Assembly: GCA_037367355.1 (NCBI GenBank)
Contig: CM074700.1
Coordinates: forward strand, 2,604,001 to 2,668,000
Source of the DNA: Neoscytalidium dimidiatum
Lineage: Eukaryota > Ascomycota > Dothideomycetes > Botryosphaeriales > Botryosphaeriaceae
Length of the DNA stretch: 64,000 nucleotides
Reading direction: 5' to 3'
This document shows, piece after piece, positions 3,790 to 31,700 of this stretch. The notes below the pieces were generated by a model. The model worked only from the letters and a program-made list of their open reading frames with translations, made no database searches and had not been told where the DNA came from. Each line of letters starts with the position of its first letter. The first letter of the stretch is position 1. Made by a program: the position numbers and the translations under genes.

Positions 3790-6248
3790 AGGAAGCTCCC
3801 GCAAAAGGGAGGGAAGAGAGGACGCCTGGGACAGCAGTAGAAATATTCTATCGATCTGCCTCTACTCCTTCCACGCCGCCCCCTCACGGTCCAGTCAGAG
3901 GGAAGGGCACCCGAGCGAGGTGCCGCTCAAGTCCGTGGTTTGGCGAGAAGTTCCCATGCCCCTCCCCTCCGCGGTCAGCCATCTCCTCCGTGCCCGATAC
4001 CGGGTTTGGATGCTCCTTCGCTCGCATTCCGCGAATCCCTTTATTCCAAGAGCCCAAGAGTCGGCAGGAAGAAAAACAGGGCTTACGAGCTAAGCAGCGC
4101 GGGCCGTGCCACACGACGGCGTTTCCACAAACAGTTGGTTGGGGACGTTTTGACTTGGTTGCCTGCCCGTCCGGCCTGGCGGAGCAAGGGCTGGGCTGTT
4201 CATCAGCCGCCGCTCGTCATCATCATCAGGCGATGTTGGCGGTGGGCCCACTACCACGTGTTTATAGGGCTGGAGAGGGGGGGTGCGTGCGCGTTTGCAG
4301 CAATCTTCTGGTGGTGGCTTTTCCTCAGCGAGAGGCGAGAGGTCGCGGCAGTTGCGGGAATATTGTGAATGGGGCGCGGCACGGCTGGAAGCGTGTCGAA
4401 CGCATGAGCGAGGCAGAATTTCCCCGGCGAACCAACCAGCAGGTGGGAATTATTCTTGCTCAGCTGTGTTGTTTTGCAGTGGCGGTCGAAACGGGCAAGC
4501 AGGTGTTGTTCGCGAGCGCGCGAGCCGGATGGGGCAGGCATCTAGCTGAAACGGGCAGTGCGGCATTACGACCGCCTTTCTCGCGCTTTGGCTTTCTGGT
4601 GGTGTGACATTCATCTGGGGTGATGATGGTGCGCATGGGGGGCTTGTTCCCTTCGCTTCCCGCCCCGTTCCCTCATTCAGCCCTCTTTCCTGACTCCTGC
4701 CCTTCAACCACCGAGCCGAATCCTTCAATCTCGCCCTCCCGGTCCCTTTTTTTTTTTTTCCCTCTCTCTCTGTGTGTGCGTGTGTGCTTGTTTCCCTGTT
4801 ACTCAACTCGAGCCCTCACCCGAGCCAAGCGGGAGGGGTTGCGCGTGCACACCAAGGCCCGAGTGATTTGGAATTGTTTGGCTGCCCGTTTGCAGTTCGC
4901 CTGACGATGGGTGCTCTGGAAGAGGGGGGGCCATGTGTTGCTGTGTGCGCTGACCATGGTGCAATGCGGCGTTTGGCCATGTCGATGCAGTGTTGAGACG
5001 TGGTGTCGAGGGTTCGGGTCACGTCACGCCTCGCTCCCCAATTATTCTGACGTTGGGCAGATGCAAGGCGGCGAGTGCGATCAGCAGCCTTCATCCAGGC
5101 CGTTGGCGAATCGTTCGCTTGCGCTGCGGAGTTGCGGGGAGGGGAGGGGAGGGGAGGAGGCGAGAGAGAAGGAACAGCGGGCGGGGGGTCGTCACAGAAG
5201 GCCCAAACCACCACTACCACCACCACCAGCACCAAGACATGCACGCCATGACGACTGACGTCGCGGTGCCGTGATCTGTTCACGATGCGATGGCAGCCAT
5301 GGTATCGCGCATGGCCTGCCCCCGGCCGCGTGCGTCGCATCTCGATTGTCCACTGCAGCACATTGGCCTGTTCCCAGCCTGGCGCTGTCGGTCGTCAGGC
5401 AGGGCTGTTGCGCGCGGGTGCTTCGACGATGGCCTTCGCAGGGCCGCAGGGCCAGGCCCGGGCCAGAGGGGGCCAAGCTTTTTGTTCGGCCGCTGTGGCT
5501 CGGGGCCTCTCTCTCTCTCTCTGTCTCTGTGCCCGTGCCCCGCCGGTCCCTTTTTCGCCGCTGCCCTGTTCCCTGAGTCGCTTTTGCCTTTCGTTGGCCT
5601 GCCCGCTCCCCATCTCACGCCATCTCTGCCACAACAAACGCCTCCCGTCCCTCGTCAACCCACACGCTATCCATTTCCCGTGTGCGGAGTAGGCGGGAAT
5701 GGAGCGAGCATGGTTCGGCGGCTGCGCGCAGCGTGGAGTGCAGCACACCAGACGTCAGACCATGCGCACCAGTCGCCCTGCCCGACCCCCCGGCCAGCAG
5801 TTCAGCCTACCATCGTCGCGGTCCTGTTGTATAAGGGCCGCCGTGGTGTTTCCACCGCCCCCCGAATCAAACAGATTCGCACCCTCTCTCCTCTCTCATA
5901 CCATACATTCATACATATATATATATATACAACCTCCGTGCTTCAGTCAAACCCGCAGCCACGGCTGAATCATTCGGCTCCTCATCGCCCGCATCGCTCC
6001 GATAAATAAACCCACCAACCATCCAAAGCTTACCCAAAACGGCAATAAAACTACCACCACTACCGGGTCTCTCCCCTCCACCCACACCCACAACCTCCCA
6101 CTTCTCCTCCACGCTCTCCCAACAGAGCACCCCTCAATCGCCCTTGCGCCACAAGACCCGTCTCTCAAACCTCAAAACGGCGGCCACGAGCATCACCCTC
6201 CCGCACCCGCGCGCCCCGGCCTCCACCACCAGCAGCACCCCAGCCGCG
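3790..6248. other. Long intergenic region and Hsp20 promoter/leader
   Basis: This stretch of 2.4 kb separates two divergently transcribed genes. The longest open frames, such as 5290-6009 plus, run through pyrimidine-rich DNA and encode low-complexity Pro/Ser/Arg text with no family signature. The last 300 bases before 6249 contain no ATG and are CA/CT-rich, as expected of a fungal 5' leader. A CT run lies at about 5508-5525. Confidence 0.6.
5915..5929 (+). promoter_or_regulatory. TATA tract upstream of the Hsp20 gene
   Basis: An alternating AT tract of about 15 bases lies 320 bp upstream of the first ATG of the Hsp20 gene. It is the best core-promoter candidate, with a second TATAAG at 5830. 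I did not find a clear array of nGAAn heat-shock units. Confidence 0.45.
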
Positions 6249-25775: not shown

Positions 25776-26851
25776 AGTGGTATGTCCCGGGCGGCAGCCG
25801 CACCGCCTTTTCGTCACACGCGAGGTGCCGTGACTCGCAGGCCGTTGGAGATACTGCGAAGACGACGCAGGGCAGGGACGAGGGTTGCTGCAGTCTATCG
25901 GCGACGGCGCCTGGCATCGGCACCGGCATCGGCCTAATTACGTCGGCGGGGCCAGATGCAGTCTTTTCTCAGGAACGCTGAAACCGGGCCTTACAAGGTC
26001 GATTGTGGTTCGCAGAGCTCAGAAGGTCCAATTCAGCATCAGAAACGCTCGAGCAGACCCTTTCACGGAGGCTGTGTGGAATGAGGTCATGGCGGCCGAC
26101 CTTGCCGCGGTGTCCTAACAGCCGCAGGATCTACGCACGTCATCCGATCCCTTTGCTCACATCCCGAGACGCCCGTTTCTTGTCTCCTCGTGTTCCGCCG
26201 AGCTCCGTCCAGTGCGCTGCCGACTGCTGAAAGCGGAAGCCATGGATGGGCCTGTCTCTCTGCATCACGTGTGGCGCCAAGCGGTCCGCGCACCACTCAG
26301 TGCTGCCGGACGGGTCGCTCTGACAAGGATGTGACAGAGCTGCAGTGGTGAGTTTCAACCACGCATGCTAGCCTCGCGTAATCCACCCTACTGGGCCCTA
26401 CGAGGATCAGCACCACCTCGTCCAGCTACCCGGCCTATGCTTCTCCGGAGAACCCTGGATCCCCACGGCGTGGCTTGAAGTTAGTGGGCATACCCCTTTT
26501 TGTGAGCCCCAATCTAGCATACACTTGCCCCGACCGCTTGAAGATCTCATCTCTTTTTGTCACGATCGTAATGAAACCGCCGCCTTCGTATGATCGGAGG
26601 CGGCATGTCGTCGTCACAAGGGAGCATACGGCCGCCAAGCCCCAACGCGTCTGGACGAGCACTCGGGATAAGCGGAGGGTAAGGGTCGGCGGCGCGGAGA
26701 GGGCTCCATCATGCTGGTCTGCTCCAACTGGGAAGTTATTTAGACTGCCGCTCCAATTCAAAACCTTTGAGGGTCCGTCCACTGTCCTACTCTTCTCCTG
26801 CATGCCGTTGATGTGAGACGGCCTCCGCCGAAGTACTCCTCTTTTCTCATC
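25776..26851. other. Intergenic region upstream of the aquaporin
   Basis: About 1.1 kb with no recognisable gene. A plus ORF at 26475-26816 and a minus ORF at 26435-26872 overlap each other and lack features. The last 90 bases are CT-rich, consistent with the aquaporin leader. Confidence 0.55.
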
Positions 26852-28501
26852 ATGTCTCAAGAGCCGCAGCAAGCCCTTCCAAGCTTTTATGGTGAGAGGA
26901 CGCCGGATGGGCGCATCGTCAAGCGCCCCTCAAGTGAGATGCCGGACATGGCGCCCATGAAGTCCCCACCCCCACGAACCAGTTCGGAACAGTTACCCTC
27001 TTCCACCGCGATGCCTGAAATCGAGTCGGCTTCAGACATCTTCTCCCACCAGAACTCGTTCAGTACTCCCCGCCCACCTAACGCCATCCAGCGCTGGGGT
27101 CCTTTGCCAGATCCGCGGGCTGAGCATGGTTGGCGGAGCACTCCAAGCAAGCGTCGGCTCAACGATGAGTATTACTACCCGGAATACAACGGGCCTGAGC
27201 GCACACCGTACTACGACTACGAGGACGAGACCCCTCTCCGCCGCAACGGCACTGCCAGCGGCCGTTCCATGAGGGAGTATCCCGGAGCTGGACCTCTGAC
27301 TTACCGTCACACTTCCTATTCTGAGAGGCCTCGTCGTCCCCCGTCGCCTCCGCGGCCACATGCCCCACGCCAGTATTCTGATGGCAGCTACGAATACACT
27401 CCCAGCCCAGGTGGTGGTGGTGCTCGCGGCCCGCCATCTGACGTTGGCAAGGTCATGCGCCTTCCACTTATTTGGTGGATGAACTCTGAGGCAAAGAACC
27501 GTGAGTTCTCCGATCATTAGACACACTGAACACACACTGACTTTGAGCAAGACTTCGTCGCGGCTCTAGGAGAGTTTGTTGGCACGTTCATGTTCCTGTT
27601 CTTTGCCTTTGCTGGCACTCAGGTCGCGAACATCGGTTCACAGGATAATGAATCGAACTCAACCACTGGCGAGTCTACCGGCTTTGACGTGACTGTCCTA
27701 CTCTATATCGCGCTTGTCTTCGCATTCTCCCTCATGGTCAACGTATGGATATTCTTCCGTATCTCGGGTGGACTGTTCAACCCTGCTGTGAGTCAATTAC
27801 GCCCCACGGCTGAGTCTGATCTAATCTCCTCTAGGTTACTCTCGCAATGGTGATGGTCAAGGCGATGGGAATTGCGCGTGGCCTTCTCCTTGTCGGCGCG
27901 CAAATTGTGGGTAGCATTTTCGCGTCGTACATCGTCTCGGTCATGTTCCCAACCCCTTTCAACGTGCGCACTACACTCTCACAAGGCACTTCAACGGCGC
28001 GTGGTGTGTTCATCGAAGCTTTCCTGACAGCCGAGCTTGTCTTTTGTATCTTCATGCTTGCGAAGGAGAAGCACAAGGCTACCTTCATTGCGCCTGTTGG
28101 TATCGGCCTTGCTCTCTTCATCGGTGAACTGGTTGGTGTCTACTACACTGGTGGTAGCTTGAATCCCGCCAGGAGCTTCGGACCATGTGTCGTCAACGGT
28201 CAATGGGATCCTGAGCACTGGATCTACTGTAAGTGCCCCGGGCCATGCGTTGATGAGTTGGTACTGATCCTTAGGTACAGGGCTTGGACCTGCGCTCGGC
28301 GCCCTCATGGCAGTGCTTTTCTACAAGTTTATCAAGATCCTCGAGTACGAAATGGCCAACCCAGGTCAGGACGCTGTTCATGAGGAAGAGGCTAGGCACG
28401 AGGCCGAGTCTCTAAAGAATAAGGAAAGCAAGATCTCGCTTGCTGCACGCGAGCGTGCTAACTCCATTACGCCTCCGAAAAAGAGGTACACCGGTGATTG
28501 A
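26852..28501 (+). CDS. Aquaporin (MIP family) with a long N-terminal extension
   Basis: Membrane channel for water or small solutes. Exons are 26852-27500, 27552-27787, 27835-28228 and 28275-28501; the introns of 51, 47 and 46 nt all keep phase. The annotated stop gives 501 residues. Residues 1-216 are a cytosolic extension rich in Pro, Tyr, Arg and Ser with no known domain. Six membrane helices follow, beginning F-V-A-A-L-G-E-F-V-G-T-F-M. Both pore motifs are canonical: G-L-F-N-P-A (Asn293) and G-S-L-N-P-A-R (Asn405, with the selectivity-filter Arg408). Intron 2 splits the first NPA from V-T-L-A-M. The cytosolic tail ends K-K-R-Y-T-G-D. The stop is TGA followed by CTA, and the frame then stays open for 71 codons (separate entry). 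Confidence 0.95.
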
Positions 28502-28717
28502 CTATCTCGCGTCATGAAGCGCTTTGGTTACATGTTCGACGAAGAACAGAGCAAGCGCATCAGTCTCCACGCAGCAAATGGCAACGGCAAACCCGATGAC
28601 GGAAACGGCAGCAACAGCGGCGACGAGAACAGTCCGAGGCCTTCACCACGGGAGCGCCGCGGCTCCACCGTCCGCTTCTCGCAGGACGTGACAACGCTGC
28701 GCGGTACTGCAAAGTAA
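28502..28717 (+). other. In-frame extension after the aquaporin UGA-CUA stop (candidate readthrough tail)
   Basis: After the TGA at 28499-28501 the same frame runs through 71 sense codons to TAA 28715-28717. The text looks coding rather than random: R-F-G-Y-M-F-D-E-E-Q-S-K-R-I-S-L, then an Asn/Gly/Asp-rich linker, then R-E-R-R-G-S-T-V-R-F-S, with mostly C or G at third positions. The stop context UGA CUA is the best-known inefficient-termination context. Insertion of one amino acid at the UGA would give a protein of 573 residues. R-R-G-S fits a protein kinase A site. Alternatives are a recent nonsense mutation, a sequencing error, or a weak 51-nt in-frame intron at 28494-28544 (GTGATT donor). 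Confidence 0.6.
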
Positions 28718-31700
28718 CAAGAGGCCGACCAACTTTTCTTCCTACCTTCCCTAATTGAAAGTCCGAGACGACTTGATGTACATTCGATTTGGAACTTTGC
28801 CATTCCTCAAGCTCTCGATGCAACGGTTGCTTATGGATTGGAATTTTATGTTTTGGATCTCGAGCGATAACGTTACCCCAAGCCAGTTAGAGCTCACTCC
28901 TCAGGTGCTACAGGCGTTCATTCAGACTTTGGAGATATTATTTGGATAATCCTATCCTGCCCAACGCATACCCACGCTTCACGTCTGTGAAAGATGTAAC
29001 GGCCGCCAGTACGATGGAATGTTTTAAGTTGCATTCGCAATACACTTTTCTTTTTGCGACACGTCTTGAACGTCTCTGTTTTCTATTTCCGTTGATTGCG
29101 AAACAAGCGCGTTCATTTCAAATCTTATTTACCACTAACACCAAATAAAGACATCATATCCTTCCTCCGCGGAACCACCGAGAGTGTACTGTACAAGATG
29201 CTAATCCGCCCACACGCTCATGTCATTTAGACTTGCGTACAGGGACCTAACGCAAACCCTCCAGCTTGACCAGCAGAAGTTTGATTGCAGCAACCCCTCC
29301 TCGACCCTAGACCACCCCTGTCCCTGTCCTCTTCCCTCTTTTCCGCCCCCCGCCATTCGCATTATCGCAAGAGGCACAAGCTACATGCAGCCTACACACC
29401 ATCTCGCCTATGGACGCACAGTTGCTACACATCTCTGACCATGCCAACCTCGGCCTCCTAGCCTTTCCTTTCTTCTCCCCCCCCCCCCCTCTCACCCCAC
29501 CGCACATCTTCCGCCTCGCCTCGACAAACCATGTAATTACACAACAGCAGCCCTCAGGATTGATCCGCAACAGCCACGGTGAAACGACAATCCTCGGAAC
29601 AAAAAAAGAAGAAGGAGCAGCGATCAGTCACTGCAGATCGCCAGGGTCGTCCTTATTACAAACAAGTCCAATCTAGAGCGCCGCGCGGAAAACCGGGTAG
29701 CGGCTGACGCGACGCGAATAGTCCAGCGTTATCATGGACAAATACGGGGAGGGGCTCTATACGCACCCCGCGCGCGGTGTAGGTCCCGAGATATGAGCGC
29801 TCATCTTTCCATCCCTCCCCCCTTCCTTTCTTCCGAAGGTAAAAGGGGTATGCGTGTTCTACGACGTTGGTTTCCGGTAAGGAGGGCGAGCGTTGATCAG
29901 GGCTGATCTTTCAGGTACGCCGTCGGACGGGACGCCGACCGGCAAAGGCGCGCGCGCAGGACGGGACCGAGGATTAAAGATGTTCGGGACCGAAGTGCGG
30001 CTTTTTAGTCGCAGCGCGGCTGTCGGCTGCGCTATGATTTTCCCGTACTGTACCGCTGCTGCGCGGGTTCCTGCACGGGATGCTACCAAACCGTTACAAT
30101 ACTGCTGCTGCTGCTGCTTCCTGCAGCATGGCCGAATGTGGCAATTTATGCTCATGCAGGTCGCGCGTGCGCTGCGACGCTTGCGCAGGTTCGTCACACG
30201 TTTTGGTTTGCGTGCTAAGGCTGGTTTTGGGATGGCGGGTGAGTATGACGTTAGTGCGCGAGAGAGGAGGGAGTTGCTGGGGGATCGGCACATCTGCTGA
30301 CGATCATCTTTCTTCGTATCAAGGGCTGCACGCTATCTGGAGCACGGCAGATGCGGTCGTCGTGTTTTCCGGGTAAGAATTCAGTGAGATGGAGGGAGCA
30401 GCAACTGGTATTCGGTGCAACGCCCTTTTTCCCGGGTCGGCGGCGTCCCGTCGTTCGCCTATCAGAGGCGGGGAAGTTCGGCGGTGCTGAATCAATGGGT
30501 CTTACAGTGGCAAGACGCGTCGACCATGGGATTGGCCCGTGGCAGGCCGTATCCGAGATGGAATGATCATCGACTGCGTGTAGAACGAGCACGAAACAGG
30601 TGGTGTTGGTGTGCCGCAGGACTGGATTGGCAGGAGATGGTCGGATCGACAACGGCTGGCGAGCGAGCTCCGGGGAAGCATTCCAAGTGGCCAAAGGTAG
30701 GCTTCGCCCCTGCGCCGATGAAGCAAGCACTGCATCTCTCCTGATCTATCTCTCGCTTACTTCGCGTGCTTATGTCCGGCGGGTTAGCGCAAAGGTCGCC
30801 ATGGAAGGCTAAGAGCGGGCTTGCGATGCTTCAAGTCCGGCGGCACTGAGCGCTGAGCACTGAGAGCTGAGCGGGGCTCAAGATGCAAGCGAGTCAGCGA
30901 CACCATGTTCGACACCATTCCTGCGATATTTCCGGTGCGGCGGTTCAGGGTTCAATGAGCCTCATTGGCCAATCGAGCAATCAATGTCTCCAGCTGCTGA
31001 TGAAAGGATACGAATGCGCCGGCAGGTCGTTCACAGATAAAATGGCTGCGGTGGGGGATGATCCTGAGGCAGTGGAGCGTTGGGTCGGCATCGTTTCAGG
31101 CAGAGGGCGGCCGAAGGATTGTGCTGCGCAGCACTCAGGCTCCGTGGAGCCCGAGCAAGGCGGCTGATTGGAGAAAACGAAGTGGTCCGGCCGGCTTCCA
31201 CACCGCATGCGAGCCTTCGCACTCATCAGCAGTTATAATGCACAAGGCCAGCCTTGCCGCCAATTCGAACACTCTCCTTCTCTTCCTCCTCGTTCCTGAC
31301 GCCTGCAAGGGACCCGCCGCTGGGCCCCAGGCGGCAAGGCACACGTGCGATGGCTGAAGCTGTGGCTTCCCCAACAGCCACTGATTGATGAAGATGCGAT
31401 TAAAGTTGTTCGCCCCCCACACAACCTCCACAGCCACGGACCAACTGAGCACGTGTCATACCTGTTCGCCGTTTGCGGTTTAGCCGAGGGTCGCAGGAAG
31501 AGTGGCTTTGCCGCCTGTGCTGTGATATCACCACTGCTGCGGCCAGTAAGACCGCCCTAGACCGCACCTTCTCAGCCTTGGCTACAGTCAGTCATCCTCT
31601 ACGCCTTCACCGGCCCATCAGCGTTCATCCTTCGCCCGTTCCTGCCTCATCCGCCCTACCGACATTGCCTGATTTCACTTGCGGACCAAGGCATATATAC

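Follow-up and report, generated by a model that had tools for sequence, protein, structure and literature searches.

The aquaporin gene described here from Neoscytalidium dimidiatum closes on a UGA codon followed directly by CUA, beyond which the same frame stays open for 71 coding-like codons, and the peptide that these codons encode recurs in two related open reading frames (ORFs) from metagenomes. We hold with reasonable confidence, short of proof, that UGA-CUA readthrough is the likeliest reading of this stop and its extension. The proposal of the original prediction, that two channel isoforms arise from one stop in this manner, is supported in that sense by the conserved peptide, by the lack of a good intron across the stop, and by the annotated protein end in relatives.

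The gene lies on the plus strand of a window of 64,000 nucleotides, by which we mean the whole stretch of DNA analysed (contig CM074700.1, positions 2,604,001 to 2,668,000), itself part of a 43.8-Mb, 40-contig genome. Exon 1 (26852-27500) carries the start codon and a long N-terminal tail, exon 2 (27552-27787) runs as far as the first NPA motif, exon 3 (27835-28228) continues from the VTL after that motif to NPARS and HWIY, and exon 4 (28281-28498, or 28501 with the stop) encodes the last membrane segment and a C-tail ending ITPPKKRYTGD. Splicing these four exons, as originally proposed, yields a single open protein ending in TGA at 28499. Its translation contains two NPA motifs (NPAV and NPAR), as is characteristic of the MIP family, and the orthologue from Botryosphaeria dothidea (P0001), which is 92% identical to it, matches the Pfam MIP domain with an E-value of 2.9e-50; two Diplodia proteins are 83% and 81% identical. 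Intron 3 (28229-28280) offers tandem acceptors 6 bases apart, a TAG ending at 28274 and a CAG ending at 28280. The exon 3/exon 4 join reads WLGPALG, matching relatives, and the sequence HWIYW[L/V/I]GPA, present at this join in all five relatives checked, requires the acceptor at 28280. The canonical protein is therefore 499 residues long, equal in length to P0001, and the extended one would be 571 with one residue inserted at UGA; the lengths first given, 501 and 573, are each corrected downward by two residues. A second aquaporin was found elsewhere in the genome through DNA similarity (L002, 1-1962, G000:C5). Its long C-tail ends in a proline run and its stop reads TGA GCG; by eye, that tail is unrelated and resembles those found in Apiospora proteins, P0066 among them. 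Downstream of the aquaporin gene, a pyrimidine-rich stretch includes 13 consecutive C (29477-29489).

At the end of exon 4, TGA occupies 28499-28501 and CTA 28502-28504, the 71 sense codons of the extension span 28502-28714, and a second stop, UAA, follows at 28715-28717, all exactly as first reported. The aquaporin stop thus presents the sequence, UGA then CU(A), by which readthrough genes are recognised. In Ustilago maydis, CUA as the three nucleotides after UGA is enough for readthrough, UGA CU being the core, and a G after CUA belongs to an extended motif outside that core, as described in the available text of PMC4207609. The base after CUA is U at the aquaporin stop, so the stronger CUAG motif is absent. 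RNA structure prediction downstream of the stop gave nothing notable (z -0.50 and -0.04), and an Rfam search over 26700-29600 returned no match at E up to 1. Four codons, CTA TCT CGC GTC (LSRV), separate the stop from a Met codon at 28514, and there is no alternative start codon among them.

The composition of the extension was scored with a codon model trained on the 66 long frames (each of at least 250 codons, some perhaps ending inside introns) found in 264 kb, that is, 200 kb of sampled sequence and the window, with the aquaporin gene left out of the training. Under this model the extension reaches 0.248 bits per codon, and a background of 1040 stop-to-stop frames, each 60-85 codons long, averages -0.064 (sd 0.112). 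Only 5 of these 1040 frames attain its value, and 2 of 1040 do so with a wrong-frame background, which bears out the coding-like composition noted at the outset. For the remaining five frames of this DNA the scores lie from -0.16 to +0.02, and 348 of 422 chunks of 71 codons cut from the long frames, which themselves trained the model, score no higher than the extension.

Further evidence comes from a survey of the 74 stops in the same 264 kb that close a run of 60 or more coding-like codons, with thresholds that were chosen after the aquaporin gene had been seen. The aquaporin stop is the only one of the 74 to read TGACTA and one of two to read TGACT. Coding-like sequence continues for at least 60 codons beyond the stop in three of the 74, and the aquaporin stop is the sole case in which this is combined with TGACTA; the other two look by eye like ordinary introns, each with a donor, a branch-like site and an acceptor. 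As such, in-frame stops that lie within introns can imitate readthrough, and L018 and L024 serve as examples. At L018 (near base 1690, minus strand, G000:C6) coding-like sequence goes on in frame beyond TAG GCT, and at L024 (near base 5829, plus strand, G000:C5) it does so beyond TAA AAA; a short intron is apparent by eye in both. Enzymes known to undergo readthrough in fungi served as a positive control, and the CTA context was found in none of the three examined in this genome (PGK and two GAPDH): PGK ends TAA AAT, one GAPDH ends TGA AAC, and in the other an Ile codon follows the stop. When the extension was searched for elsewhere in its own genome, its own place was followed by three weak matches (E 0.048, 0.41 and 0.46), which appear by eye to be low-complexity.

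The most direct support for a protein-coding extension is the recurrence of its peptide. A search with the extension alone, over proteins of 39-124 residues, returned two matches among three candidates, P0121 (64 residues, E 1.2e-16) and P0122 (67 residues, E 1.1e-15), both of which come from metagenome contigs without annotation. Identical residues number 44 of 63 aligned positions for P0121 and 45 of 64 for P0122, and the two differ from one another at 25 of 60. Both alignments start with the Met at 28514 and reach the last residue, the ends of the two ORFs sharing a single alignment column with that of the extension, and the variable linker differs by indels of whole codons that preserve the frame. 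The expectation that the frame after the stop is conserved in relatives is thus borne out at the protein level, in that the same peptide with the same C-terminal end is found in two sources. Two blocks stand out within it. The first, MKRFGYMFDEEQSKRISLHA (28514-28573), is identical at 18 of 20 and 17 of 20 residues in the two relatives and contains a KRxS site; the block highlighted earlier, FGYMFDEEQSKR, proves to be the conserved part of the extension. The second, STVRFSQDV (28664-28690), follows an RxxS site, which reads RRGS here and RQNS and RRGS in the relatives, and STVRFSxD is invariant across all three. KRxS and RxxS may be kinase sites of the basic-residue-plus-Ser kind. The shared peptide is the one feature that would tie P0121 and P0122 to an aquaporin gene. 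Both begin at the same Met, four codons past the position of the aquaporin stop, and a stop is probably conserved there in both, since a gene caller would otherwise normally have extended them into the aquaporin exon.

This common start also lends itself to a different explanation, namely that the 67-codon ORF beginning at AUG 28514 is a second cistron, translated by itself through reinitiation or from its own transcript and never fused to the channel. The AUG of block 1 is a possible reinitiation start, positioned 12 nucleotides past the stop with G at -3, and reinitiation there is the strongest rival to readthrough because the available alignments start at that very codon. If a stop lies upstream, however, a gene caller has to begin the metagenome ORFs at this Met, and their common start so gives this explanation no preference over readthrough. 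Neither P0121 nor P0122 bears an annotation or a name, and the CTA context and the match of phase with the channel would both have to be coincidence. Reinitiation after long ORFs is presumably very rare, to go by the accessible part of PMC5972666. On balance we regard a separate cistron as unlikely.

The stop itself can be traced through the annotated relatives, which are cluster representatives with one sequence per cluster. The B. dothidea protein ends KKRYTGD, identical to the end seen here; one further residue makes this KKRYTGDA in D. corticola and D. seriata, and KRRFTGDV closes a partial Saccharata protein. Over the canonical C-tail, identity is 94% with B. dothidea (44/47) and 91% and 89% with the two Diplodia (43/47 and 42/47), with lower identity in the N-tail of each (89%, and 75% and 73%, respectively). 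Given that B. dothidea shares the canonical end and the two Diplodia proteins stop one residue beyond it, the aquaporin stop is not recent; judging from that later end (GDA), the context of the Diplodia stop may be different. Many other Dothideomycete relatives (P0013, P0019, P0022, P0047, P0070 and others) have a short tail closing in KKE[TS]V, which we take to be PDZ-ligand-like. The type of end in this aquaporin family thus differs between groups, with KKE[TS]V in those relatives and KKRYTGD in Botryosphaeria and Diplodia.

The age of the stop bears on the notion that the extension is accidental, either a 3' untranslated region that happens to be open and to look coding or a former C-terminus that was severed by the TGA and is now decaying. 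Openness by itself is ordinary, at least 71 open codons following the stop in 9 of the 66 long frames. Drift is likewise compatible with a neutral simulation taken alone, which was matched for identity, run over assumed divergences and left out frame-keeping indels. In that simulation the frame remained free of stops in 40-70% of runs across the distances tried, about 1-7% of the matched stop-free runs retained 17 or more of the 20 residues of block 1, and substitutions as mild as those observed arose in 4-5% of cases for P0121 and 16-28% for P0122. By itself, then, the simulation supports selection on the peptide weakly. Against an accident or a relic stand the rarity of the coding score, the retention of a common peptide and of its frame, through indels, by two ORFs as divergent as P0121 and P0122, and the end shared with B. 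dothidea and displaced by one residue in Diplodia. Furthermore, were P0121 and P0122 as distant as Diplodia, neutral sequence would be expected hardly to align. We judge an accidental or decaying extension to be quite improbable.

Alternative splicing could also join the extension to the channel, if a minor intron were to take out the stop. Fungi make peroxisomal glycolytic enzymes by splicing as well as by readthrough, and an AAG acceptor at 28519 is accompanied by a branch-like TTGAC, intron 1 of this gene also ending in AAG. Donors are the difficulty for this explanation. No pair among the 33 frame-compatible GT-AG pairs that span the stop combines a good donor with retention of both the channel and block 1. 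Three frame-compatible GT donors are available to the acceptor at 28519: splicing from the donor of intron 3 (score 6.06) would lose the last membrane segment, from the donor at 28313 (-3.1) part of that segment, and from the donor at 28376 (-6.18) the conserved C-tail. The weights behind these scores were assumed and applied to GT donors only, and the scores accordingly rank the donors without amounting to a calibrated test. At the protein level, 30 word-sharing annotated proteins of 315-1002 residues included none that matches the extension at E up to 10. The protein searches covered lengths of 39-124 and 315-1002 residues, and an ORF of about 150 residues fusing the last exon to the extension, with the stop as a sense codon, would escape them. 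The DNA collections in which relatives were sought are bacterial/archaeal and viral, not fungal; scans of the genome contigs with the extension and with the canonical C-tail, and of the viral contigs once, gave 30, 86 and 35 pattern matches, none of which was confirmed. An intron at 28494-28544 was considered separately and rejected, with a donor scoring -0.01 (5.53, 5.53 and 6.06 for the known donors) and no match to the branch-site pattern; it would remove MKRFGYMFDE, the best conserved part of the extension. In our estimation a stop-removing intron is a very unlikely source of the fusion. Least credible by far is an assembly or base-call error, in which the TGA would truly be a sense codon within a protein of about 571 residues: no supporting point was seen, the annotated B. 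dothidea protein stops at this very residue and those of D. corticola and D. seriata one residue on, and the metagenome ORFs begin after the TGA.

If readthrough is indeed what occurs at the aquaporin stop, the majority of ribosomes would halt at UGA and release the 499-residue aquaporin, while a minority, owing to CUA, would decode UGA with a near-cognate tRNA and go on for 71 codons to give the 571-residue isoform. We infer that this takes place, and at a rate of low percent, as no RNA structure stands out and the G of CUAG is missing; a role for the tail would follow. The longer product would be expected to enter mixed tetramers as an occasional subunit. It is reasonable to postulate that the basic and aromatic block MKRFGYMFDEEQSKR and the basic, Ser-containing end (RxxS-TVRFSxD) act as a module for binding, to protein or lipid, and for phosphorylation, and that this module alters the location, clustering or gating of the few subunits that carry it. 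The added tail is probably disordered. Structure prediction from three sequences gave no confident fold (mean pLDDT 57.4, pTM 0.12), and no Pfam domain was found in the extension, the one hit, to P0122 alone (E 0.11, 13.2 bits), lying under the cut-off of 25. A PTS1 is absent from its end, which reads TAK here and AAR and IAK in the relatives.

The core of the protein is that of an orthodox aquaporin of the MIP family, for which the nearest solved structure is PDB 2w1p, which we take to be a yeast aquaporin. Orthodox aquaporins differ in being without a counterpart of the extension, insofar as a profile of the extension gave nothing significant among the 120 of 2136 matches listed (best E 0.75). 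The closest parallel is mammalian AQP4, which is likewise an aquaporin with UGA then CUA (in the available portion of PMC4132726) and a conserved in-frame C-tail extension, AQP4ex. AQP4ex is phosphorylated at Ser335 in that extension, according to the accessible text of PMC9138620, and the fungal tail has conserved basic-residue-plus-Ser sites. The two differ in that AQP4 has CUAG where this gene has CUAU, and in that the AQP4 extension comprises 29 residues (as given in the part of PMC6444679 available) in contrast to 71. The likeness to AQP4 that was suggested at first therefore holds for the arrangement and for the stop context, and homology of the tails is not claimed. Among fungi, Tpi1, Rpe1 and Art1 of U. 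maydis have the same short UGA-CU(A) context (PMC4207609, available text), and they differ in that readthrough there exposes a peroxisomal PTS1, whereas the gene described here encodes a membrane channel with a TAK end. No account of readthrough in a fungal aquaporin came to light in the open-licence papers searched. The mechanism of readthrough is itself already known, and this aquaporin is a probable new member of the genes that undergo it at UGA-CU(A), an unusual one as a membrane channel of a fungus that carries no peroxisomal signal.

Whether the reading extends further is more evenly poised: we see roughly equal grounds for and against the independent evolution, in Botryosphaeria-related fungi, of a regulated readthrough aquaporin in which UGA-CUA gives a constant minority of subunits a conserved, phosphorylatable tail that controls the placement or activity of the whole tetramer. 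If true, the fungal channel would have converged with vertebrate AQP4ex and would represent the second arrival of an aquaporin at that solution. The fungal UGA-CUA cases described in the available text of PMC4207609 serve peroxisomal targeting, and fungal readthrough at this context would here serve something else, the same leaky stop diversifying membrane channels. One stop codon and a 71-residue tail would then constitute a small system in which to follow the effect of an occasional extended subunit on a tetrameric channel.
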